This document shows, one piece after another, positions 1 through 11,142 of a DNA stretch of 28,283 nucleotides (the first letter of the stretch is position 1; each line of letters starts with the position of its first letter). Under the pieces are notes generated by a model. That model saw nothing but the letters and a program-made list of their open reading frames with translations. It was not told the origin of the DNA and did no database searches. This DNA comes from a virus. The translations under genes and the position numbers were made by a program. The stretch is taken from positions 1 through 28,283 of the IMG/VR virus record IMGVR_UViG_3300031918_000122. One strand, given 5' to 3'.

Positions 1-784
1 CTGGAAACAGGCGAAATTGTTTCCAAATAAAAATCGATCGGATCAAACCGGCACCGCAGACAACGCGGTCTAAATCAGGTGCTCGCTCACTCATCGAACC
101 AGCGAGGTAAAAGAATTAAAGGGAGTAATCGAGCTATAAGCATAGGAACCTTATAAGCAGAGCAGCAGTAATCGAAACATGATTATGAGCGGGCCAAAAA
201 AACAGAGACTAACGTAATAATATGTGAGGGCGTCCTCTTTCGGCGAGAAGCATAGTATTATATGTCATAGTTAAGCGGCTGGGGACTGTCGCATTACAAA
301 ATGTCCAAAAAATGATGATTGATGGTAATACGTATTAGCAGCCATGATCCTTAAATGGAGAAAATCGAAAAGCTATAAATGCAGGAATAGCATCCCAAAA
401 TCCACACAGGTTTAAGCTCCTCAGTGTATCGAGAAGTAGGTGTCCGCCCTTTGGAAGGTTGGCCCAGGCAAGAATAGTAAATCTAATAAGCCGATTAAGA
501 GTTATGCCGGACTCAAAACCTATATTGAACATACAGGAAAGGCAAACCGACAGCAAACCTGGTACTGGTGGCAAATCAATTGCTCCGAGATAGACAAATG
601 CTGAACGGACAGCTATAAATGTCGAATTTTAATTATTTACCACGTCAATAAGTCTCATAGAAGCCGACCATACAAAATAGCCACTATTAAAGTTACTTAT
701 GAAAAATGGGTATCTGCCGCAACAGCATACAACAATATAAAAACGATATAGAATAGGTAATTTGGATAATTAAAAGCAATAACT

Positions 785-892
785 CCCCGCGCTATAATAA
801 TGGCGATCAGCCCATGAGAGATGGAAGATTAAAGGAGAAAATGCAAAAACAACTATTAATAGAATACATAAACCGGCTAGTAATGCGCGGGG
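785..892 (+). ncRNA. Multibranch domain closed by an 8-bp GC helix
   Basis: CCCCGCGC (785-792) is an exact reverse complement of GCGCGGGG (885-892). Such a GC-only match is unlikely by chance in sequence this AT-rich. The enclosed 92 nt contain a short CCAT/ATGG hairpin and long purine-rich single-stranded stretches. This is the clearest long-range helix in the gene-free region and the best anchor for a fold of the candidate large RNA. Confidence 0.55.
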
Positions 893-1689
893 TGGAAATC
901 CAATAGTTGAAGTTATCTTTTTGGCAATTAAAAAACCAAAGGCCCATGGACCTAGATAGCGAACATCTCATTATATTACTGGTTTTAAAATGAATGAAAC
1001 AATATAAAAACCAACCTAGTTGTTGCTTTCAAGGTTAATCGAAAGTGGTCTGCGCCTATACTAGTAGATAGGAAACACACGTTGTAAGTGTGATAACGAA
1101 CAGAAAGGCGAAAGCCGAAGTTGGAAACTCGCTATATAGTTTCATCCCGGCGAGATTCGGGCAGTAGATTAAGCTATAGAACAAATCATGCGAAAAACTA
1201 AAAGAATGGCTAGTTAGGAGTACGACCTGCCAGACAGGAAAACTTCAAACCCATGATATATGGGCAAAGTTTATATCACCAGTAAAAGAGTAGTAAGCTT
1301 TTACAGCATATGTCAATACGGCTAGAACCCGGTATACTTATTGCTATCATATGTCTTATGAATAGTAATAATAGGGGCGCAAAGGAGCTCGATATGCAAA
1401 ACCAAGTGGAAGGTCAAACACTTTAAAACCAATAGAATAGGGAAATGAACAATCATTCGGTACAAGACGATAAGAAAGTCATTTCAATACAAGAGTCTGA
1501 AGTTTAGAAACCTGGCGCCCATAGTTGGAATCAGTCCTTTAATGGAGAAAGGTACAGAACACGCAGGTCCAAACTGTAAACAAAGTAAATAATTAAGAAT
1601 ATGATTATTTGCCCCGTGCTTATGTACATATATAAAGTAGTCACTAAATAGGATTTAAACAAAACATTGCAAATTATATCAATAGTAAC

Positions 1690-1707
1690 TCAAGTTTCAA
1701 GACTTGA
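1690..1707 (+). other. Perfect 6-bp hairpin
   Basis: TCAAGT (1690-1695) pairs with ACTTGA (1702-1707) around the loop TTCAAG. It lies near the 3' end of the candidate RNA and just ahead of a more pyrimidine-rich stretch (about 1740-1860). No U-run follows, so it is not a terminator by itself. Confidence 0.4.
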
Positions 1708-1797
1708 CACAATATGGAACTTCAGAACACCATGGCTTCATTTGCCATAGGAATTGATACAAGGTTCGTTACGAAATCTTTCTACATACGTTCTTCT

Positions 1798-1827
1798 CTA
1801 TTCTTAATGCTAAAGAATAGTTTTTTT
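1798..1827 (+). terminator. Intrinsic terminator-like hairpin
   Basis: CTATTCTT (1798-1805) pairs perfectly with AAGAATAG (1813-1820) across a 7-nt loop and is followed at once by seven T (1821-1827). The stem is AT-rich and so not very stable, but geometry and U-tract are right for the plus strand. It gives a natural 3' end for the candidate large RNA upstream. Confidence 0.5.
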
Positions 1828-1830
1828 AAA

Positions 1831-2332
1831 TTATCAAATATTATCGGCTATTGTATTTACTATACTCAAGAGGCTAATCTCAAGGGTAGATCGTGACATA
1901 AACATCCATAGGCTTGTTGTGTAAATATAACTGGAATAGATGGAGAAGCCCATTATTCAAATACCGCTTTTATTCAAAACCAGCCCGAGAAAACGATGAA
2001 ACTAGGGCATACATATATACAATGGAATGGAGCGTCTTAGAGCAGTGGCAGATAATGCTGAGGTAATAAGATTGATCATAAGAGACTACTTATGAGGTTT
2101 ATAGTAAATAAATCGTCTAGCGACTGACAGATACAGAAAGTATATAGTGATATAAGGATTACATGCCCTGCGAGTAGGAGAGCAATGGATTTAGGATTGG
2201 AGTGTAACCAATCATTATTAAATTTCTTTACATTTTACATCAAATTTTCTAGTCGGAACAGATTAAACTCTCAGTAAGACGCAAAATATTTTCAAAACAC
2301 AGTAATTAAATCAATTAAAAACGGAGGTCAAA
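1831..2332 (+). other. Gene-free stretch upstream of the first early gene
   Basis: No credible ORF is seen here. It contains a perfect hairpin, GATTGG (2195-2200) with CCAATC (2208-2213), with the 7-nt loop AGTGTAA, and a weaker GCCC/GGGC pairing near 1985-2010. The last 110 nt are AT-rich and would be expected to hold the promoter for the plus-strand genes, but I cannot identify a specific Bacteroidota or phage promoter motif. Confidence 0.35.
2323..2332 (+). promoter_or_regulatory. Shine-Dalgarno ribosome binding site
   Basis: GGAGG at 2323-2327 lies five bases before the ATG at 2333. Most other starts here have only A-rich leaders (typically ending in CAAAATG), as is common in Bacteroidota. 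A near-perfect Shine-Dalgarno is therefore unusual in this window and confirms the start. Confidence 0.7.
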
Positions 2333-2800
2333 ATGAAGACAAAGAATAAAGTAGGTCAGCGGCTTTTTGCTGGCGCAGAAATTTTCAAAATAGCATCAAA
2401 ACCAGTTGATGTAAATCACAAGTCAAAAGAAAAAGAATTACGTATCGAAAAACTTGCACTTATCTGCATGCCAAAAGCACTCGTAGTAAACGAAGTGAAA
2501 TTGACACACGGACCTGGTGGATCGGAAATTTACGTAGTGAACGGAGGAGACAACAAAGTCTTATTCCCTGGTAATTACAAATTCGCAGAAGACGCCGGTA
2601 AATTCGATCTCGAAAAAGAGCCCGACACATATTTCCCTTCCTATAAGGAGGCAATCTCAATTTGCAACGCTGAAAATGAAAGCGAGATTAATCGCTTGAC
2701 AATTATTCGCGATGATATCGAAGAACAGATTAACTGTCTAATTGCCGCTAACAAGGCAAATACCGCAGCTATTCCGTTGTACGAAGAAGAAGAGGACTAA
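2333..2800 (+). CDS. Unknown 155-aa early protein with acidic C-terminus
   Basis: I do not recognise the family. The protein is soluble, with a basic N-terminus and a middle part rich in short beta-type segments (GGSEIYVVNGGDNKVLFPGN). Residues from about 115 to 140 (ENESEINRLTIIRDDIEEQI) look helical, possibly a short coiled coil, and the chain ends in the acidic tail EEEED. No catalytic motif, signal peptide or membrane segment is visible. The start is fixed by a good Shine-Dalgarno, making this the gene most clearly marked for strong translation. It is the first gene after the long noncoding region and is followed after 35 nt by another unknown gene in the same direction. An early host-takeover or DNA-binding accessory role would be a guess. 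Confidence 0.85.
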   Translation: MKTKNKVGQRLFAGAEIFKIASKPVDVNHKSKEKELRIEKLALICMPKALVVNEVKLTHGPGGSEIYVVNGGDNKVLFPGNYKFAEDAGKFDLEKEPDTYFPSYKEAISICNAENESEINRLTIIRDDIEEQINCLIAANKANTAAIPLYEEEED

Positions 2801-2803
2801 TCC

Positions 2804-2819
2804 GAGTTCGCAAGAACTC
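2804..2819 (+). other. GCAA-tetraloop hairpin between two genes
   Basis: GAGTTC (2804-2809) and GAACTC (2814-2819) form a perfect 6-bp stem capped by GCAA, a stable GNRA tetraloop. It occupies almost the whole 35-nt gap between two genes and is followed only by a weak T-rich stretch. It could protect the 3' end of the upstream message, attenuate transcription or be a processing point. Confidence 0.5.
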
Positions 2820-2835
2820 TTAATTCATATTCAAT

Positions 2836-3357
2836 ATGGATAAAAAGACTAGTTTAAATGATATTGATTTGCAGCGATTAGCTGAATTAGTCAATGTCTA
2901 TCTCAAACCATCTGAACGTTTTTCAATAAATGGGAAAGGTGAGGTTTCTTTAACAGTTAAATCTTGGTTGGCAAGACTCTTTAAACGGAGTTCAGAAGAC
3001 CACTATGACTTCTTAGAAGTGGTAGGGATAATTGTAAAAGGAATTATGGATGTTAAGGGAGTAATCCCTTTCATAGCAACTACATGCGATAATTCTATTG
3101 ATATATTAATTGACAACAATGATAGATCAACAGTTATTGCAAAACTCTATACAGCACATATAATAGACGAAGACCCTCAAATAGAAGAGGCAAAAGTGAT
3201 TGGGCAAAAGGTAACAATTGAGTCCAAACAACGAATGCTCTATCCAGGAGAAGTTATATTCCGAAAGGAACCTAGCATCCGAGAGCTAAATGAGAATGTT
3301 TGCGCATTATTAAATGGCAAAAGAAACAATAAAATTGTCATAATTGGCAAAAGGTAG
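2836..3357 (+). CDS. Unknown 173-aa protein
   Basis: Not recognised. The N-terminus (DKKTSLNDIDLQRLAELVNVYL) is predicted by eye to be helical. It is followed by a basic stretch (KSWLARLFKRSSEDH) and then a hydrophobic segment (FLEVVGIIVKGIMDVKGVIPFIA, about residues 61-83) that could be a buried helix or a weak membrane-associated helix. The C-terminal half is mixed alpha/beta and ends in the basic IVIIGKR. The only in-frame ATG with an A/T-rich leader is used as start. The stop is TAG, one of several genes here that use TAG, which argues against TAG recoding. Cotranscription with the upstream gene is likely. Function unknown. Confidence 0.8.
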   Translation: MDKKTSLNDIDLQRLAELVNVYLKPSERFSINGKGEVSLTVKSWLARLFKRSSEDHYDFLEVVGIIVKGIMDVKGVIPFIATTCDNSIDILIDNNDRSTVIAKLYTAHIIDEDPQIEEAKVIGQKVTIESKQRMLYPGEVIFRKEPSIRELNENVCALLNGKRNNKIVIIGKR

Positions 3358-3665
3358 TTTTTTAATTAAGTAATAAATATTGAAATTCATTGAGGTTAAA
3401 CCCTGACGTTCGAACTGTATATGATTGGGTAACTCCGAGGATCATTTACGCTAAGCGAGAAGACAATGTACAAAAAACAATATTCATTATGGCTTAGAAA
3501 ACACACAAAAAAAATAACGCAGATCCAAACCTTAAACGGGGAGGAACTGCTTTGTCCTTTTAAAAAAGAATAAACAGAGTGATATCTGTTATTTAACACG
3601 GAGAGGTTGCTTTAGGTCAAAAAGAATTAACTATTAGTAATAATCAAAACTAAAAAATTATCAAA
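3358..3665 (+). other. 308-nt gene-free stretch with hairpins, possible ncRNA or leader
   Basis: No real gene is seen. On the plus strand CTAAGC (3451-3456) pairs with GCTTAG (3492-3497), and ATGAT (3421-3425) with ATCAT (3441-3445). AGGA (3542-3545) pairs with TCCT (3555-3558), extendable by G-U pairs. A 9-bp hairpin with one bulged A runs 3569-3578/3585-3593. Two look-alike segments occur 60 nt apart: GGAGGAACTGCTTTGTCC (from about 3540) and GGAGAGGTTGCTTTAGGTC (from about 3600). The region could be a structured 5' leader of the next gene or a separate small RNA. Confidence 0.35.
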
Positions 3666-4124
3666 ATGACAGCACCTACTAAAATTACACCTACAAAACT
3701 GATCGCAAAACGCGAAGTACTTATCGCACAGATCAAAACCTCTTGGAATCTTATTATTAAAAACAATGTATTACCAACAGAGATGATGCCTCTATACAAT
3801 TTAACAGCTGTATATGCTCAAATTAAAAAAGACGAAGCCAAGTTGATCGAAACGAAGATCAAACTACAGGCAATTAATTTTGGAATTAAGGACCTAAGTC
3901 TTATCTCTAAAGATAGCGCGTTCTATTCGATCTTTTTATTACAACAAATTAAAGAACGAGCAACAAAATTGGCAATGATCCCAACAAAAAAGGAAGATAC
4001 CGAAAAAGTGGTATTTAGTAGAAAATTCATCAACGATGAAATTACTGAATTGAATGGGAAGATAACTATACTGGAGGAATATCTGCTAAAATTTAACGCT
4101 GAAGAAATTAATGACGCAGCATAA
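3666..4124 (+). CDS. Unknown 152-aa helical protein
   Basis: Not recognised. The composition is strongly helical and lysine/glutamate-rich. Heptad-like hydrophobic spacing appears around residues 10-60 (KLIAKREVLIAQIKTSW, then AQIKKDEAKLIETKIKLQAI) and again at 125-147 (INDEITELNGKITILEEYLLKF), so a coiled-coil or helical-bundle protein is likely. It has no cysteine pairs, signal peptide, membrane span or nucleotide-binding motif. The ATG follows ATTATCAAA, similar to the leader before the MoxR gene (CATATCAAA). It stands alone between two gene-free stretches of about 300 nt, both with possible RNA structure. Function unknown. Confidence 0.8.
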   Translation: MTAPTKITPTKLIAKREVLIAQIKTSWNLIIKNNVLPTEMMPLYNLTAVYAQIKKDEAKLIETKIKLQAINFGIKDLSLISKDSAFYSIFLLQQIKERATKLAMIPTKKEDTEKVVFSRKFINDEITELNGKITILEEYLLKFNAEEINDAA

Positions 4125-4416
4125 CACTAACAAAGAAGTAATGGTAAATGCACTAGAAGAAGTGTAATTGGGTCCAATTCCCAAGCTTTAACAAAAGACA
4201 GATAATTTAAAAAAAGGGCAAATAGAGTTCGTTAGCTTCATAAGGGTCTAAAGACTGGTGTTGCGTTACAGTATACGACTATAATACAGAGACTCGTAAT
4301 CAAAGTATTGTGATTAACTGGACAGTCAAGCGTAAAATCAGACAACGAGGCGTCCACGAAACGCCTACAAGTTTGTAACTCCAAATTATCTGTCATCACA
4401 TTAAAAAACAAACAAA
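4125..4416 (+). other. 292-nt gene-free stretch with a run of hairpins
   Basis: No credible gene. Plus-strand hairpins: TGCACT/AGTGTA (4149-4154/4161-4166), TTGGG/CCCAA with a 7-nt loop (4168-4172/4180-4184), TAATCA/TGATTA (4297-4302/4311-4316) and AGGCGT/ACGCCT with a 7-nt loop (4348-4353/4361-4366). GACTG (4253-4257) pairs with CAGTC (4323-4327) and could close a multibranch domain that also includes TTGCG/CGTAA (4261-4265/4295-4299). The 4168-4184 hairpin resembles a tRNA T-arm with C for U55, and 4349-4365 resembles an anticodon arm with C for U33, but no cloverleaf can be built around them. Confidence 0.4.
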
Positions 4417-4902
4417 ATGAGACCAATTGAAAGAATAGATGATTTTTTAAAAAAAGTAGATTGGAATGACCTATTATATAACAGATGGAAATTGGATAAA
4501 GAAATTTATTACGATAAAAAAATTGCATACGCAATAAAACCAACTGTTCCAGAATACTGGAAAGAAAATCCAGATATGAGAATCGGCCAAGTCCTTATAA
4601 ACATGCAAATAGTGCCAAATGACATTGTAATATGGCATGCAGAAGAGCCAGACATTTTAATGTCACAGGGACTTCCACCAGAAGAATGTTTGTATTGGAC
4701 TTCGCTCTACGACAAAGACATGAATCTTTTAGATGAACCATTAAACCGAAGAGTTAGCGATTTAACAAAAGATCATATTATCGCAATCGATAAATACATG
4801 AAAGAGCACAACGGAAAGATATCACCAGAAATGGAGCAAGCGTTCGTAAATGTTCTACTAAGGCCAGAAATCACATTAGATGATTATTCTGAAATGAAAT
4901 AA
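4417..4902 (+). CDS. Conserved hypothetical protein, WxxNPDxRxGQ type
   Basis: The protein resembles a widespread uncharacterised family in bacteria and phages. Its hallmark, an opening RPIxRID helix followed by W-x-E-N-P-D-x-R-x-G-Q-x-L-I-N, is seen here at about residues 45-62 (YWKENPDMRIGQVLINM). A second block (residues 93-120) has LYWTSLYDKD followed by SDLTKDHIIAI, the recurring D-x-T-x-x-H-I-x-A-I ending of that family. No enzymatic motif, signal peptide or membrane segment is seen. The start ATG follows an A-rich leader (AAAAAACAAACAAA) and is preceded by the structured gene-free stretch. The family recognition is from memory of its sequence pattern; the function of such proteins is not known to me. 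Confidence 0.8.
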   Translation: MRPIERIDDFLKKVDWNDLLYNRWKLDKEIYYDKKIAYAIKPTVPEYWKENPDMRIGQVLINMQIVPNDIVIWHAEEPDILMSQGLPPEECLYWTSLYDKDMNLLDEPLNRRVSDLTKDHIIAIDKYMKEHNGKISPEMEQAFVNVLLRPEITLDDYSEMK

Positions 4903-4954
4903 CAGATCCTATCAAACTTTATCACATAAGATTTAACTTAAAAGTAAATTAAAA

Positions 4955-5521
4955 ATGCTGATAGAACTAGATTTGGAAGAGGCTAAGCGTCTCGGGATTA
5001 CAGTAAATCAGATTATATTGATTAGTTTGCTGATGAATAAAACACCAATAAGACCTCTACTGGACGTAATTCCATTAGAAGAAGATGACATCAACAACCT
5101 AATAGATAAGGATATATTAACAAAAGAATCAACTTTTGATGAAAAAGATTTTTCAAAACTAGTCATAACCGAAGACTTTAAAACAAAAATTAAAGTTAAA
5201 GATTATTTTACTGAATTCTTTGAAGCATATCCAGCATCAGTGCTGAGAAATGATGGACTAAAGGATTACTTACGAGGAGATATATCTCGATGTAGGAAGT
5301 ATTATGATAAAATAGTAGGAAAAAACAAAACCAAACATGACCACATGATGGATTGCCTAAAATTCGAAGTAGAAACAAGAAAAAGAGGAAATTCACTAGG
5401 TTATATGAAGAGAATGGCTAAATGGCTATTATCTGAAGAATGGCTATTATATGACGAATTTATGAAAGATAAAAAAATTCAAAAACATGCAGGGGAAGTT
5501 TATGGCACCGCAATCGAGTAG
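4955..5521 (+). CDS. Unknown protein next to the helicase; possible helicase-loader-like accessory
   Basis: Not firmly recognised. The first half (MLIELDLEEAKRLGITVNQIILISLL, then IPLEEDDINNLIDKDIL) has the rhythm of a small winged-helix or HTH domain with a linker. The second half (about 80-180: YFTEFFEAYPASVLRNDGLKDYLRGDI, then GYMKRMAKWLLSEEWLLYDEFMKD) is all-helical and rich in aromatic residues. Proteins of this size and style often sit directly before DnaB-type helicases in phages and act as loaders or replication-initiation accessories. Here its 3' end overlaps the helicase ORF, which implies coupled translation. The role is inferred from position only; no Walker motif is present, so it is not a DnaC-type ATPase. 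The stop codon is TAG. Confidence 0.75.
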   Translation: MLIELDLEEAKRLGITVNQIILISLLMNKTPIRPLLDVIPLEEDDINNLIDKDILTKESTFDEKDFSKLVITEDFKTKIKVKDYFTEFFEAYPASVLRNDGLKDYLRGDISRCRKYYDKIVGKNKTKHDHMMDCLKFEVETRKRGNSLGYMKRMAKWLLSEEWLLYDEFMKDKKIQKHAGEVYGTAIE

Positions 5522-6494
5522 TAAAATACTAGGATACAGACATATATCAACTGCTACGAACGAAATTGTTGGATATATTCAAGACAGAAGGACAAAAAAA
5601 GTAAACTCATTAGCGACCAGATGGCCTAAATTCAATCGCCTAGCAATGGGAGGAATTGAACCAAATGCCATATATGCAATAGCAGGGGTCTCTGGGAGTG
5701 GAAAGTCGTCATTTGTCAATACATTAGAAACTGATCTTATTGATCTAAATCCACGCGAAGATATAGTAATCCTATCATTTTCGTTTGAAATGCTATCAAG
5801 CAGGCAAGTGGGAAGAAAATTATCCTATAAACTAAAAAAAACCACATCAGAGTTATATAGTGCCTCAGAAAAGGGGCTAATAACGGACGAAGAGTATGAG
5901 GGGATACAGAAAGAGGCAAAAACAATAATGAGTTATCCAATTTATTATGTAGATACGCCAGGGAACGTAAGCGAAATAGCAACAACAATAAAATTCTTTC
6001 AAGATACTCTTGCCAAAGGGAAATGGCTAGTAGTCATTATAGACCATACTCTATTAATTAGAGGAAGTGGTACCGGAGGAGAAAGAGAAATTATTGTGGA
6101 TTTAGAAAAAGAATTAATAGGGGCAAAAAAAGTTGGTAAAACCTCTATCATACAAATATCACAAATGAATAGGAATATTGAATCGCCAGAAAGGTTAAAC
6201 AATAGTTCTCTTCATTACCCACAGCGAAGCGACTTATCGTCAAGCGATGCGGTCTTCCAAGGATCAGACTATGTCATAGTAATACACAGACCTGAAGTAT
6301 TAGGATTATTATCCTATGGTTACAACAATCTCCCCGTAAAAGATTGTGTATACTTACATTTTTTGAAAAATAGAGAAGGGGACCTTAAGATATTGAAATT
6401 TATCAATGATCTAAAGTATAACAACCTAAAAGAGCCAGAAGAAGACGAAATAACCGCGGAAAGACACCAACAGCAGCTAGAAATAAAAATTTAA
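5487..6494 (+). CDS. DnaB-type replicative DNA helicase, RecA-fold core
   Basis: This is a hexameric-helicase ATPase core. The Walker A loop GVSGSGKSS lies at about residues 68-76. The conserved FEM (FSFEMLSSRQVGRKLSYKL) follows at about 103-120, Walker B as VVIIDH near 182-187, and the motif-3 region ISQMNRNIE near 225-233 with its glutamine. HFLKNREGD (about 290-298) is the C-terminal segment that in DnaB holds the basic residue contacting the neighbouring subunit. At 335 aa it lacks the N-terminal collar domain of cellular DnaB (about 450-470 aa), like compact phage helicases. It would unwind DNA 5'-3' at the phage fork with the primase encoded at 8567. The start may be 5487 or the ATG at 5502, which has AGGGGAAG just upstream; both overlap the preceding gene. 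Confidence 0.92.
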   Translation: MQGKFMAPQSSSKILGYRHISTATNEIVGYIQDRRTKKVNSLATRWPKFNRLAMGGIEPNAIYAIAGVSGSGKSSFVNTLETDLIDLNPREDIVILSFSFEMLSSRQVGRKLSYKLKKTTSELYSASEKGLITDEEYEGIQKEAKTIMSYPIYYVDTPGNVSEIATTIKFFQDTLAKGKWLVVIIDHTLLIRGSGTGGEREIIVDLEKELIGAKKVGKTSIIQISQMNRNIESPERLNNSSLHYPQRSDLSSSDAVFQGSDYVIVIHRPEVLGLLSYGYNNLPVKDCVYLHFLKNREGDLKILKFINDLKYNNLKEPEEDEITAERHQQQLEIKI

Positions 6495-6507
6495 AAAAAC
6501 ACACATC

Positions 6508-7062
6508 ATGAATAACTATTACAATTTTACGGTAACATTGCCAACAAAGAAACAAGACAGATTCGGTTTGAAAAAAACAGCATTTGTAGAAACGATCATC
6601 GAAGGATGCCCATGGTTGACAGTGGCCGGAACAGACGCTCCATTCAAAAATACCCTAGGAAAGAGTATTAAAGGAATAGACTATGCACCAGCAGGAAGCG
6701 TATTGACTTTCGGTACCAGTAAAACACACGATGTAAATTGGATTGAAGATTTATCATATTTGAAAGATGGATACAAAATGCCAAACTACAATTTGATGAC
6801 AGAAACAGCAGGAGCGCTAAAACACCTGACGTTATTTGCGCTCAACAACGCAAAACAAACCACAAAAAGTAACGACCGTTACTCAGAAAGTTATAAATGC
6901 CCACTTTGTGGAAATATTACAGATGTAGAAGAATTTGCTTCTTGTACAAAAGTAGGATACACCATAATCCCAAAGGCAATTAGCTTTCCAACCTTCTATA
7001 GTTATCGTAAACCTCAATACACCACCGAGTATACTGTTACTATCGAAAATATCTACGCATAA
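6508..7062 (+). CDS. Unknown 184-aa protein with a small cysteine knuckle
   Basis: Not recognised. The bulk looks like a beta-rich fold. A cluster of three cysteines, CPLCGNITDVEEFASC (about residues 131-146), is C-x2-C-x11-C, suggesting a zinc knuckle that lacks an obvious fourth ligand; a lone Cys near residue 34 (GCPW) could serve. It lies 13 nt after the helicase gene and before the Sak4-like gene, so a role in DNA replication or recombination is likely from context. The stop is followed by a long-loop hairpin that could partly end transcription. It could be a single-stranded DNA-binding or structural accessory protein; nothing in the sequence proves either. Confidence 0.8.
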   Translation: MNNYYNFTVTLPTKKQDRFGLKKTAFVETIIEGCPWLTVAGTDAPFKNTLGKSIKGIDYAPAGSVLTFGTSKTHDVNWIEDLSYLKDGYKMPNYNLMTETAGALKHLTLFALNNAKQTTKSNDRYSESYKCPLCGNITDVEEFASCTKVGYTIIPKAISFPTFYSYRKPQYTTEYTVTIENIYA

Positions 7063-7071
7063 TAATAACAT

Positions 7072-7141
7072 GCGGATGATTATATCAAATCATATCAAAT
7101 ATTGTCAACTCTATCAAATAAAAAATCATCTGCTGTTTTTT
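7072..7141 (+). terminator. Long-loop hairpin with T-run (terminator or regulatory stem-loop)
   Basis: GCGGATGATT (7072-7081) pairs over all 10 positions, with one G-U, with AATCATCTGC (7124-7133). It is followed by TG and then six T. The loop is 42 nt, much longer than in a typical intrinsic terminator, and holds three TATCAAAT repeats. It may end part of the transcription after the upstream gene, or be a cis-acting stem-loop whose loop binds a protein. Confidence 0.45.
7083..7119 (+). repeat. Three direct TATCAAAT repeats in the hairpin loop
   Basis: TATCAAAT occurs exactly at 7083-7090, 7093-7100 and 7112-7119, spaced 10 and 19 nt start to start, about one and two helical turns. This puts all copies on the same DNA face, as in iterons or operators. 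They sit in the only gap inside the replication block, between the helicase-side genes and the Sak4-like gene. They could be a replication-origin or operator element, or simply A/T-rich low-complexity sequence. Confidence 0.45.
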
Positions 7142-7158
7142 AACAATAAGACAGCAAA

Positions 7159-7905
7159 ATGGTTATACTACCAACAATAAAAAGCATACCCAAAGTATTA
7201 AACCCAAGATTCTTAATTTTGTTTGGAAAGCCTAAAACTGGAAAAACAACATTACTATCAACCCTAAAAAACTGCCTAATAGTAGATCTAGAAGGCGGAT
7301 CAGAGTTCTTAGAAGCAATGGCAGTTCAAGCTAGAAGCGTCACAGATCTAGGAGAGATAGCAACAGCAATTAAAACAAAAATTGCAGAAACAGGGAAAAA
7401 ACCATACGATTACATTGCAATAGATAATGCTACAAGACTAGAAGACATGTGTTTGCCATATGCCGCCAGCCTATATAAACAAAACCCAATAGCAAAGAAC
7501 TGGACTGGAACTGATGTGAGAACGTTAGAAAAAGGAGCAGGATATCTTTATTTAAGGGAAGCCGTAAAAACAGTAATAGATAACTTTCGTAACCTAACAG
7601 ATCATTTTATTCTGATAGGACATACAAAAGACAGTCTAATAACTAAAGACGGAATAGAATTATCTGAAATGGAAATAGACTTGGTTGGAAAACTTGGATT
7701 AATAGTCTGCGGAGAAGCAGACGCAGTGGGATATGTTTATAGAAAAACAAATGAGACTTTAATATCATTTGAAGGAGGAGTAAACTCAGTAAGAGAAGCA
7801 AGAGCCCCGCACCTAAGAGGGAAAAAAATAGTTATAGCAGATTCTGATAAAGATAATGTGATTACAACCTATTGGGATAAAGTATTTTTGCCATCAAATG
7901 ATTAA
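7159..7905 (+). CDS. Sak4-like AAA_24 ATPase (RecA-fold recombination protein)
   Basis: A compact RecA-fold NTPase of 248 aa. Walker A is GKPKTGKTT at about residues 23-31, directly after the first strand FLILF. The next strand ends in LIVDLEGGSEFL, typical of AAA_24 proteins, and Walker B is YIAIDN near 87-92. A later LIGHTKDS supplies the sensor region. This is the pattern of the Sak4-type phage recombinase family, which stimulates single-strand annealing together with a phage ssDNA-binding protein. The following gene is a good candidate for that partner and overlaps or abuts this stop. Crassvirales commonly carry this family near helicase and primase. The start ATG has the A-rich leader GACAGCAAA. 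It could also be annotated only as an ATP-binding protein. Confidence 0.87.
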   Translation: MVILPTIKSIPKVLNPRFLILFGKPKTGKTTLLSTLKNCLIVDLEGGSEFLEAMAVQARSVTDLGEIATAIKTKIAETGKKPYDYIAIDNATRLEDMCLPYAASLYKQNPIAKNWTGTDVRTLEKGAGYLYLREAVKTVIDNFRNLTDHFILIGHTKDSLITKDGIELSEMEIDLVGKLGLIVCGEADAVGYVYRKTNETLISFEGGVNSVREARAPHLRGKKIVIADSDKDNVITTYWDKVFLPSND

Positions 7906-7921
7906 TAGAAAGAGACAGATT

Positions 7922-8548
7922 ATGATATTTAGTACACAAAACGCTTTTGACGTTGAAAAGAAAGACATTGCCTTCTTAGAAGGAGGTATTCACGAAAATG
8001 TAAACTTTGTTAACGTGAGAAAAGAACGCTCCACCGGGGGCAATTTATTCCTTGAATTCGAATTTGCAAAAAACGGAGCCAAGTTAACCCATACAGAATG
8101 GGAACCAAATAAAAGATCAGAAGACACAGACGAACAATTTGCAACAAAAGCAAATAACCAAGTGGCAAGAATATTACAAGTTATGGGATGTTTCTACGAA
8201 AAAGAAGCATTACAGAACTACACTTTCAGCGAGTTCGATGAATTGTACTCATGGGTCAAATCATTAATGGATGCAGTTGATAAAAACAAACTATTGAGAG
8301 TAAAAGTTATTTATGGCGAAACAGGTTATACCTCATTGCCTAAATATGCCAAATATACTTTCATTGAGAGCATGGATATCCCAGCGGATAAATCTAAGAT
8401 TAAAAAATTAGGTATTGATGTGTTTGATCGTCCAGAAATAGGAGATAAAGAAACATCAACTGCAACGGCAGCAAATATATTTGGTGGAGGAGCTACAGCA
8501 GTGAATATGATGAACGCTACCGCTAATTCTATGACAGCGCCTTTTTAA
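7922..8548 (+). CDS. Putative single-stranded DNA-binding protein
   Basis: The protein (about 208 aa from this start) has a beta-rich first 150 residues (VNFVNVRKERSTGGNLFLEFEF, then LLRVKVIYGETGYTSLPKYAKYTFIESMDIP) like the OB-fold-type phage ssDNA-binding proteins that follow Sak4-like genes. A low-complexity tail follows (AANIFGGGATAVNMMNATANSM) and it ends in TAPF, recalling the short protein-docking tips of SSBs, though without the usual acidic residues. The frame is open from an ATG at 7898, but ATG 7922 is preferred: it has ACAGATTATG, the same ten bases as at the start of the next gene, and avoids overlap with the Sak4-like gene. Function is assigned from context and composition. Confidence 0.75.
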   Translation: MIFSTQNAFDVEKKDIAFLEGGIHENVNFVNVRKERSTGGNLFLEFEFAKNGAKLTHTEWEPNKRSEDTDEQFATKANNQVARILQVMGCFYEKEALQNYTFSEFDELYSWVKSLMDAVDKNKLLRVKVIYGETGYTSLPKYAKYTFIESMDIPADKSKIKKLGIDVFDRPEIGDKETSTATAANIFGGGATAVNMMNATANSMTAPF

Positions 8549-8566
8549 GCTGATTATAAACAGATT

Positions 8567-9544
8567 ATGTATAATACCAATACTATTCTAAATCAAAACG
8601 CAGAGGCCAAAATTACAATGCAAAATATACTAGAGAAAGTAACTGATTATGATATCTTCTCTAAATATATAGGTGATTTTAAAATAGGTTATATATATAA
8701 TAGTCCGTTACGAGATGACAAAAATCCTTCATTTGGAATTTTTGTAAGTAGAAAAACGGGAGATCTATTGTATAAAGACTTGGCAAGCGATGACTGCGGA
8801 AACGTATTTAAATTTGTTAAACGACTAAAAAACCTAAATACATATGAAGAGACCTTGAAAGTAATTTCAGAAGATATGAATATTAATGGGTTAAAATTAA
8901 TGATGTCGTCAGAGCATAAGCAACGATTAATTAAAGACACGATTATAAGCGTAGTCAGAAAGCCATTAAATCTTACTGATATTAAATTTTGGAGTAGCTT
9001 TGGTGTATCTAAAGAAACACTTAAGATATACAATGTTAGTCCAATTTCTAAGTTTTTAACAAATGGAATAGTAAAAGGTAAATACGAAATAGAAAACCCT
9101 TTGTACTGTTACAAAGTGTTTAACAAGTTTAAAATTTATAGGCCTTTTGGTTCTAAAATGATAAAATGGAGAGGGAATTTAAACGCTCTTGATATTCAAG
9201 GATTTGAGCAATTACCGGAAAATGGGGATTTGCTTATTATCACAAAATCATTGAAAGATGTCATGGTATTACATGAGATGGGATATGATGCAGTTGCTCC
9301 TTCGAGCGAAAGCGTTACAATACCAGAGAGTGTAATGAATAACCTGAAAAAAAGGTTTAAAAGAATATTGATTTTTTACGATAGAGATAAAGCAGGAGTT
9401 GAATATGCAAGGAAAGTATCAAAAGCGTATAATATAAATGCAATCTTTATCAACAAAAAGTATAAAACAAAAGATATTAGCGATTTAGTCAAAGGACTGG
9501 GATATGCGAAAGCATTACAGATTTTTGATTCAATGGCTAATTAG
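8567..9544 (+). CDS. DNA primase with Toprim domain
   Basis: The protein (325 aa) has the two-part layout of phage Toprim primases. The N-terminal block SPLRDDKNPSFGIFVSRKTGDLLYKDLASDDCGNVFKF (about residues 46-83) has the fold-defining residues of the primase zinc-finger domain but not its four metal ligands. The C-terminal Toprim region runs from about 215: LLIITKSLKDVMVLHEMGYDAVAPSSES, then ILIFYDRDKAGVEYA (near 266-280), whose D-R-D binds metal. The first Toprim motif, normally with an invariant Glu (like EGxxD), reads TKSLKD here, so the usual glutamate is missing or relocated. The enzyme would make RNA primers with the DnaB-type helicase. No helicase fusion is present, unlike T7 gp4. 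The start shares ACAGATTATG with the previous gene; the stop is TAG. Confidence 0.88.
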   Translation: MYNTNTILNQNAEAKITMQNILEKVTDYDIFSKYIGDFKIGYIYNSPLRDDKNPSFGIFVSRKTGDLLYKDLASDDCGNVFKFVKRLKNLNTYEETLKVISEDMNINGLKLMMSSEHKQRLIKDTIISVVRKPLNLTDIKFWSSFGVSKETLKIYNVSPISKFLTNGIVKGKYEIENPLYCYKVFNKFKIYRPFGSKMIKWRGNLNALDIQGFEQLPENGDLLIITKSLKDVMVLHEMGYDAVAPSSESVTIPESVMNNLKKRFKRILIFYDRDKAGVEYARKVSKAYNINAIFINKKYKTKDISDLVKGLGYAKALQIFDSMAN

Positions 9545-9734
9545 CTGAAAGAACAGGATCGTCCATATCGATTAGCAACCTGTTAAAGTATTGCGATGTG
9601 TGATCAAAGCAATGTAAAAAAGTAGAAGATTGCAATTGGGATGATAACCCAGGGAAAAACAAACGTTAGATGTATATGGGTATATCAGTAGAGTGCAATG
9701 AAATAGTGCACACTTCAAAGACAAAATAATCGGA
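9545..9734 (+). other. Gene-free stretch with hairpins and mutually exclusive pairings
   Basis: Plus-strand pairings: AACAGG (9552-9557) with CCTGTT (9579-9584); TGGG (9637-9640) with CCCA (9648-9651) around the 7-nt loop ATGATAA; GTGCA (9693-9697) with TGCAC (9707-9711). GCAAT at 9609-9613 can pair either with ATTGC upstream (9590-9594) or with ATTGC downstream (9629-9633), a switch-like choice. The region leads into the tRNA-like element, so both may belong to one transcript. No ORF is credible here. Confidence 0.35.
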
Positions 9735-9808
9735 AGGCCATTGCCCACATAGGTACATGGGGATCTTAGAAATAAGATAGTATACGAGTTCGAATCTCGT
9801 ATGGCCTA
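9735..9808 (+). tRNA. tRNA or tRNA-like element with a 6-nt anticodon loop
   Basis: A nearly complete cloverleaf. The acceptor stem is AGGCCAT (9735-9741) with ATGGCCT (9801-9807), a perfect 7 bp. U8-G9 precede a D-stem CCCA/TGGG (9744-9747/9758-9761) with a GG-containing loop. The anticodon stem is ATCTT/AAGAT (9763-9767/9774-9778), followed by a 5-nt variable loop. The T-arm ACGAG-TTCGAAT-CTCGT (9784-9800) is canonical. The next bases are A then CA, so CCA is not encoded. The anomaly is the anticodon loop: only AGAAAT (9768-9773), six bases without U33, so no anticodon can be assigned. It may be a decayed tRNA, a tRNA that reads in an unusual way, or a tRNA mimic that stabilises or processes a transcript. 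No isotype is proposed. Confidence 0.6.
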
Positions 9809-9864
9809 CAATTTAAATTGAACCTTGGAAAAGTTCAAATAATTATCACTATTATTAATCTTCG

Positions 9865-9890
9865 TTAACAGAATGGAGTTACTCTGTTAA
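9865..9890 (+). other. 8-bp hairpin in the leader of the MoxR gene
   Basis: TTAACAGA (9865-9872) is the exact reverse complement of TCTGTTAA (9883-9890), with a 10-nt loop. It ends 22 nt before the ATG at 9913 and has no T-run, so it is more likely a leader or RNA-processing structure than a terminator. A second 6-bp hairpin, TTGAAC/GTTCAA, lies just upstream between the tRNA-like element and this one. Confidence 0.45.
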
Positions 9891-9912
9891 TCAAAAAACA
9901 AAACATATCAAA

Positions 9913-11142
9913 ATGAATATAAAATCCAATACAGAAAATTATCTGATTAGTCCAATGGAGACTGAAAAACATTTCGGAGTTAAGACGAGTAAATTTATCG
10001 TCATCGACAAAAATACATTTGACTTCGTAATTCAGGACAATAGCGAATATATATCAGAAGGAGAATGGATCGACGAGGAAATTGACGGACGAAAATTCCG
10101 TAAAGTGAAGAAAAACATACTTGCCGAATTCGGTGATATTTTGTTGAGCGAATACAAAAACTCTGACAAAATATATGAAATTATCAGCAAGAAATTCATT
10201 AACATGTCTGGACCTTCCCAGGTTATCAAGAATGCATTGTCAAATGATATGAACCTCATATTATACGGTAAAGGAGGTTTTGGTAAATCAGAAGTTTGTG
10301 ACGAATTATTTTCATGTGCAGAATTGAAGGGGCGCGTATTCATTAAATCGCTATCTGAAGCTACCACCGTTGAAGACTTATTCGGAGGCATTAATATTAA
10401 GAAAATGACTGACACGGGCTCAATCGAATACAATTGTGAAAATTCATTCGCAAACAGTGAGATTGTGATTCTCGAAGAGATCTTTGACGCTAATCCACAA
10501 GTGTTGGCCGCACTTAAGGATACATTAACCTCAAAAGAAATTCGAAACGGAAATCAACGTTTCCCGATAAAAACCAAAATTATTATCGGGCTTACCAACA
10601 AAACATACGAAGAAGTAATTGAAGATGACTCAACAGAGGCGTTAACTCAACGATTCGCTGTATCATATCCATTCCAGTACGAAATCAACAAACTAAACTC
10701 AGCGAGTCTGATTTTAAATCGTTATCCAGACTTTGGAGAAGATAAACTGGCTGCAATGATTGACACTATTACAGAGATGAAAGGTCTTTCCCCACGAAAG
10801 ATTCTGGAAATGTCAAAATACATTAAAAATTTGGATATCATTAAGAATAAGAACTATTCTGAAAAGATCACCAATAATTTGATGACGCCAGTAACCAATT
10901 ACCTGAAAACAAAAACAAGTATCAATGTATATAAATCACTATTTAACGAAATCGTAACGACAAAGAAAGCAATACGAGACGGACAAATTACAGATTATGA
11001 TTCATTCATTGATACCAGTCGAAACCTGGAAATCATTAAAAAGGCTATCGCTAGAAAGGCTATCGCTTTGAGTGGAGAACAAAGTGCTATAAATGCAATA
11101 AAAGAAATTGATGAGTTATTAACCCTGATTAACAAGCGATAA
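9913..11142 (+). CDS. MoxR-type AAA+ ATPase
   Basis: A 409-aa AAA+ protein of the MoxR/RavA/CbbQ kind. Walker A is YGKGGFGKSEV at about residues 118-128. Then comes EDLFGGI (about 156-162), the motif in MoxR proteins where the helix-2 insert begins, and Walker B as IVILEE (about 183-188), with glutamate in place of the usual aspartate. GLTNKT (about 225-230) carries the sensor-1 asparagine and ALTQRFAVSYPF (near 243-254) the arginine finger. The C-terminal part is the helical lid plus an extra helical region. MoxR ATPases work as hexameric remodelling machines with a VWA partner, often inserting metals or assembling complexes. The VWA gene starts 3 nt after this stop, the classical pairing. 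The phage target is unknown. Confidence 0.88.
   Translation: MNIKSNTENYLISPMETEKHFGVKTSKFIVIDKNTFDFVIQDNSEYISEGEWIDEEIDGRKFRKVKKNILAEFGDILLSEYKNSDKIYEIISKKFINMSGPSQVIKNALSNDMNLILYGKGGFGKSEVCDELFSCAELKGRVFIKSLSEATTVEDLFGGINIKKMTDTGSIEYNCENSFANSEIVILEEIFDANPQVLAALKDTLTSKEIRNGNQRFPIKTKIIIGLTNKTYEEVIEDDSTEALTQRFAVSYPFQYEINKLNSASLILNRYPDFGEDKLAAMIDTITEMKGLSPRKILEMSKYIKNLDIIKNKNYSEKITNNLMTPVTNYLKTKTSINVYKSLFNEIVTTKKAIRDGQITDYDSFIDTSRNLEIIKKAIARKAIALSGEQSAINAIKEIDELLTLINKR

Follow-up and report, generated by a model that had tools for sequence, protein, structure and literature searches.

The window (the whole 28,283-base stretch of DNA analysed here, a crAss-like phage record) contains a gene-free interval at positions 31–2332, which we regard with good confidence as a large structured RNA gene on the plus strand. 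Comparison of related sequences supports the interpretation that the interval encodes a putative large structured RNA outside the known families, and this RNA would very probably be among the largest structured viral RNAs known. The original prediction had proposed a giant structured RNA at this site, possibly a very large phage RNA of a new class, or a tandem series of smaller RNAs. Covariation along the full length in two clades, synteny over four subfamilies, and the lack of any Rfam match support a large structured RNA outside the known families.

Location of the interval and its neighbours

Crass-like phages are among the most abundant human gut viruses, and the DnaB-like helicase of the window shares ~70% identity with its counterpart in cr118_1 (Suoliviridae, Uncouvirinae). 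A short ORF precedes the interval and gene A follows it, with the replication genes located further downstream; the genes flanking it on both sides are on the plus strand. Contig L001 is identical (100%) to window 1–10797 and extends 5.7 kb further upstream; because a 122-aa ORF on this contig (L001 5330–5698) terminates at window position 30, the true gene-free interval is 31–2332. In alignments of relatives, the conserved block begins directly after the upstream stop codon. The features of the locus are:

1–30, plus strand: end of the upstream 122-aa ORF, from the overlap with L001
31–2332, plus strand: whole gene-free interval, proposed giant structured RNA; non-coding, with covariation over its whole length
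2333–2800, plus strand: gene A, 155 aa, a conserved gene adjoining the proposed RNA, with no Pfam, PHROG or PDB relative
2836–3357, plus strand: gene B, 173 aa, conserved neighbour by synteny among related loci

Genes A and B are without recognisable relatives, and fold searches with models of both returned no PDB relative; the two are the first candidates for RNA partners. Separately, contigs L002 and L003, both identical to the window, stop inside the RNA interval at window 780 and 1458, perhaps at assembly breaks.

Coding capacity

The expectation that no gene would be found in a region of 1.8–2.3 kb was borne out for 31–2332 by ORFs, alternative codes, and the phase of indels. Under table 11, no ORF of at least 80 aa occurs within the interval, and lowering the cut-off to 60 aa yields just two, 335–574 (minus strand, 79 aa) and 1714–1896 (plus strand, 60 aa). 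With TAG or TGA read as sense, the longest ORF in the interval reaches 103 aa, and each plus-strand frame of the interval contains 49–54 stops. Indel lengths among four relatives, sorted by remainder modulo 3 (0/1/2), number 44/108/102 in the interval and 3/0/0 in gene A in the same comparison. Window 31–2332 is non-coding under the codes tried. Two antisense ORFs annotated within the RNA interval of relatives, L210 2344–2826 (cr7_1) and L212 2480–2986 (Bohxovirus), were considered and rejected; neither is conserved and that of cr7_1 has in-frame stops under table 11, so both are probably spurious.

Conservation of sequence and structure in the window's clade

A scan with the helicase identified 63 related loci. 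The region is retained in relatives with 45–82% identical DNA; specifically, L010, L013, and L016 align to it at 70–77% identity, and eight more phages align at ~46–50% overall, with strongly conserved blocks. Motifs retained in most relatives include GAAGTYTAGAA (1499), GTCACTARATAG (1640), CTTYAGAAYACC (1720), and AGGAACTAATACAAG (1748). A gapped two-motif pattern matched 17 viral contigs, all already in the helicase-scan set; pattern matches in two bacterial genomes, L080 and L081, gained no support from covariance model R1 (described below). A scan with the motif CCTACCRTTGGNNTCCC was not specific, as 57 viral records matched, many of them outside the phages studied, and protein alignments of gene A were too divergent to seed a scan. 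Between conserved cores, entire arms are present or absent (e.g. window 1135–1185). Such gain and loss of arms between conserved cores is usual for structured RNAs.

Single-sequence folding energy gave z = +1.1 for 1–1000 and z = −2.6 for 831–1830; by folding energy alone, the 5′ half is no better than shuffles, and the energy signal is partial. Column-shuffle folding z-scores were dropped because a downstream-gene control was equally extreme. Given that folding energy was undecisive and the column-shuffle scores were matched by the gene control, we relied on covariation.

Covariation shows that secondary structure is conserved along the interval. A structure derived over the whole length from four phages (L001, L010, L013, and L016) was evaluated in eight other, held-out phages, where pairing reached 60% compared to 35–39% when the structure was slid. 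Cells changed on both sides numbered 356 versus 81–129 for slid structures (~3-fold), and this excess was found in each sixth of the interval length. For the core, we aligned 12 phages over window 1467–1862 by sequence only and scored on them a structure taken from four closely related phages: across the 12, 90.3% of cells were paired in the core (window 1493–1772) versus 30–43% slid, both-side changes were present at 22 of 33 pairs, and the covariation score was 0.522 against a slid maximum of 0.122. A scan of all column pairs revealed 15–16 antiparallel stacks scoring above 1.5 compared to 1 parallel control stack, and 11–12 compared to 0 above 2. Model R1, a covariance model built on the core junction (window 1685–1772), matches the held-out phage L085 (E = 2e-4) within that phage's own gene-free interval. 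Across 1.02 Mb, the model gave no significant match besides the window and L085, and it finds a single core copy in each of three near-complete clade genomes. No covariation-supported helix linking the two ends of the interval was found.

Individual structural elements

The elements resolved within the interval are:

275–345, plus strand: hairpin region from covariation, in which 322–326:341–345 covaries and 275–281:286–292 and 283–287:302–306 are alternatives
891–900, plus strand: GNRA hairpin GGU-GGAA-AUC
1107–1116, plus strand: GNRA hairpin GGC-GAAA-GCC
1250–1278, plus strand: candidate H-type pseudoknot from covariation, with 1250–1253:1261–1264 crossing 1254–1259:1273–1278
1342–1367, plus strand: long hairpin, the strongest single signal of the covariation scan
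1493–1656, plus strand: domain from covariation, closed by 1493–1498:1651–1656 and 1502–1507:1644–1649 and enclosing 1560–1564:1614–1618
1685–1772, plus strand: core junction of 1685–1689:1768–1772, 1690–1694:1703–1707, 1717–1721:1763–1767, 1722–1725:1754–1757, and 1730–1731:1750–1751; 90% of cells paired (together with the 1493–1656 domain) and represented by R1
1798–1827, plus strand: conserved hairpin with a T-run behind it in the window; by alignment of relatives, not a conserved terminator
1934–1958, plus strand: covarying hairpin downstream of the terminator-like site
2101–2109, plus strand: loop motif ATMGTAAWT, which 12 of the 13 clade members carry at 81–91% of the length

GNRA-type loops had been predicted and are present at 891–900 and 1107–1116; the motif of the former hairpin, GGTGGAAATCC, recurs in other subfamilies at a different relative position. 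Where a nested double helix had been proposed (1240–1272), a paired element does exist, but it reads rather as the candidate H-type pseudoknot. Its helix 1250–1253:1261–1264 has both-side changes in distant phages, and helix 1254–1259:1273–1278 varies among close relatives only. By contrast, the proposed long-range GC helix across 785–892 (8 bp, 785–792:885–892) is missing from L010, L013, and L016; it is not conserved and probably arose by chance.

A second clade and the family-wide locus

The syntenic interval of 15 Oafivirinae-type phages contains 20 antiparallel stacks above 1.5 versus 1 parallel. Held-out pairing in these phages was 69% compared to 37–43% slid, with 397 both-side cells compared to 105–138. 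Using 17 sequences, 25 helices were supported, spanning bases 51–2071 of the 2,075-base L104 region. Two long-range pairings (L104 201–206:1927–1931 and 303–309:1498–1504) are well kept and hardly variable, and suggest a single folded molecule.

Where a related locus has a gene A orthologue and extends far enough upstream, it is in most cases gene-free, or nearly so, for ~1.4–2.3 kb immediately before that gene (ORF cut-off 80 aa, the lower values being due to short chance ORFs). GenBank genomes of the Uncouvirinae, Oafivirinae, Loutivirinae, and Boorivirinae have ~1.9–2.5 kb at the locus, mostly unannotated, a syntenic blank across four Suoliviridae subfamilies. A large blank precedes gene A in all Suoliviridae phages checked, and crAss001 (Steigviridae) has no blank of comparable size.

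By BLAST, 39 regions from four subfamilies form one cluster, and the window's clade (13 regions) forms a separate one. Links between the two clusters are weak (best E 2.5e-4 and 6e-4, to cr53_1), model R1 detects nothing significant in the other subfamilies, and short motifs are common to both clusters, some at other relative positions. Synteny and size make it likely that the RNA of the window's clade is homologous to that of the other subfamilies. A circular permutation between the clades, considered on account of the shifted motifs, was rejected, as one segment shared by L010 and cr53_1 keeps the same relative position.

Strand, extent, and alternative interpretations

GNRA hairpins in the window's clade are enriched on the plus strand (72 versus 52 ± 7 in shuffles) and not on the minus strand (18 versus 30 ± 5); outside this clade, GNRA enrichment is likewise stronger on the plus than on the minus strand. 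Conserved G-U columns occur inside covarying helices of the core. A strand-neutral wobble count (G-U versus A-C) gave no significant strand preference, and the held-out performance of minus-strand folds is nearly equal to that of the plus strand. Similar covariation on both strands, together with the adjoining replication genes, would suit an element acting at the DNA level, for instance an origin of replication or a packaging region in which single-stranded DNA forms hairpins. However, GNRA loops enriched on one strand, conserved G-U pairs inside covarying helices, and a multibranched structure over 2 kb, which is not typical of origins, argue against this and render a DNA element very improbable.

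With regard to extent, the original prediction had placed a terminator-like 3′ end at 1798–1827. The hairpin at 1798–1820 is retained in the close group, but a following T-run of at least 5 occurs only in the window and L010, and is missing from L013 and L016. The T-run is therefore not conserved, and because covarying structure continues 3′ of the 1798–1827 hairpin, position 1830 is not the end of the RNA. A conserved internal terminator was not found in 53 regions. A bolder reading, to which we give somewhat less than even odds, is a single free-standing RNA of ~2 kb, a core part of every Suoliviridae phage that would serve as an RNA machine or scaffold needed in infection. Alternatively, the interval could hold a tandem of at least two smaller RNAs processed separately, for example with a break at 1798–1827 and a second RNA at ~1830–2290. 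Most supported helices are indeed local or mid-range, arms are gained or lost independently, and in the window and L010 a T-run follows a terminator-like hairpin near 80% of the length. Yet L013 and L016 lack the T-run, a terminator occupies no constant position in the other regions, total length stays near 2 kb across subfamilies, and the two long-range Oafivirinae pairings are well kept, if hardly variable; we thus consider a tandem rather unlikely. It nevertheless ranks first among the alternatives, ahead of a leader and then of a DNA-level element.

The leader alternative holds that the interval is a very long structured 5′ leader controlling genes A and B in cis, as might be expected from the fact that it always precedes gene A and that the last supported Oafivirinae helix (L104 2029–2038:2062–2071) stops a few bases short of where gene A begins. 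Against this, conserved structure starts right after the upstream stop codon and not near gene A, and an ornate structure of ~2 kb far exceeds known leaders, making such a leader improbable.

Comparison with known RNAs

The window has no Rfam match at the gathering threshold in a scan including GOLLD, ROOL, OLE, HEARO, and group I and II introns, and seven related loci gave only tRNAs, outside the interval; this agrees with the original statement that neither GOLLD nor ROOL is recognisable here. A permissive scan of window 1–2400, up to E = 5, returned only sub-threshold matches to unrelated families, and the ribosomal RNA models of Rfam have no match in the interval.

GOLLD, found in phages and prophages, is very large and ornate and frequently lies close to tRNA genes; it is without assigned function, its core is conserved and the rest less so, and many members are above 800 nt (PMC12286853). 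ROOL, likewise large, ornate, and encoded by phages and prophages, is frequently located close to tRNA islands and without described function, and the ROOL of solved structure has 659 nt (PMC12286853). OLE, a bacterial RNA that is also large and ornate, assembles into an ordered complex (PMC12286853). The proposed RNA would resemble GOLLD as a very large ornate phage RNA near a tRNA, with a conserved core and less conserved remainder, but differs in length (~2000 nt versus the many GOLLD above 800), in having no Rfam match, and in its place beside gene A, kept across the whole phage family. It would share with ROOL the character of a large ornate phage RNA with a tRNA nearby, but spans ~2 kb compared to 659 nt and again has no Rfam match. 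Large size and ornateness would also link it to OLE, which the interval does not match in Rfam. OLE is not known to occur in phages.

If the interval held a divergent representative of one of the known large RNA families (GOLLD, ROOL, OLE, or HEARO), or else an intron of group I or II, this would explain an RNA of the same general kind, large, ornate, and phage-encoded, with a tRNA gene upstream. The Rfam results, with no match at gathering and permissive matches confined to sub-threshold hits to unrelated families, make this extremely unlikely; moreover, the interval interrupts no gene, as an intron would, because the flanking ORFs are separate and complete. A literature search outside preprints and most subscription journals found no description of the locus or RNA, and in a 2021 survey of crAss-like phages the words intergenic, noncoding, and RNA structure are all absent.

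Proposed role

A large structured RNA outside the known families remains our preferred reading. Such an RNA would be made within a plus-strand operon transcript, as may be surmised from the sites examined: no promoter or conserved internal terminator was recognised, with no match to a Bacteroidota-type promoter pattern in L001 and sigma-70-like sites no more frequent than in shuffles. The RNA would then be cut out, or ended, near gene A, and would fold into a body of several domains, with outer arms gained or lost from one relative to the next. By analogy with what is thought for GOLLD and ROOL, it could act in trans as an architectural RNA or RNA–protein particle, a role to which we assign a little less than an even chance. 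The machine or scaffold may be a ribozyme, may assemble into a cage-like structure, or may form the body of a particle specific to the phage.

If this reading is true, the ~2 kb RNA is larger than 16S ribosomal RNA and would exceed twice the size of GOLLD, while being absent from Rfam and blank in most of the GenBank annotations read. The locus would offer a tangible subject for structural and genetic studies of why giant RNAs persist in phages, a question equally posed by GOLLD and ROOL.

Additional observations

Several features were recorded near the interval or in related genomes. Upstream in L001, 1219–2018 contains two halves resembling one tRNA, ~720 bases apart, between which lie a complete tRNA-Arg (1295–1369) and a minus-strand 170-aa ORF (1369–1881) that is HNH-endonuclease-like; the split-tRNA region matched no intron family. 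A gene for a sigma-70-like (ECF type) sigma factor occupies L001 2751–3353, upstream of the interval on the same strand. In crAss001, a 905-base blank (L202 43286–44190; MH675552 95965–96869) lies beside Gp96, a TROVE (Ro60-like) gene that is present in this phage and absent from the ten Suoliviridae-type records searched. Structured RNAs are the ligands of TROVE proteins, so this blank may harbour a Y-like RNA. The helicase of cr118_1 is annotated as two CDS with a ~350-base insert, perhaps an intron (L005 12201–12557), and the helicase stretch is also longer in L023 and L024. Finally, a tRNA match in L104 (12899–13054) extends over 156 bases, and the gene seems to contain an insertion of ~80 bases.
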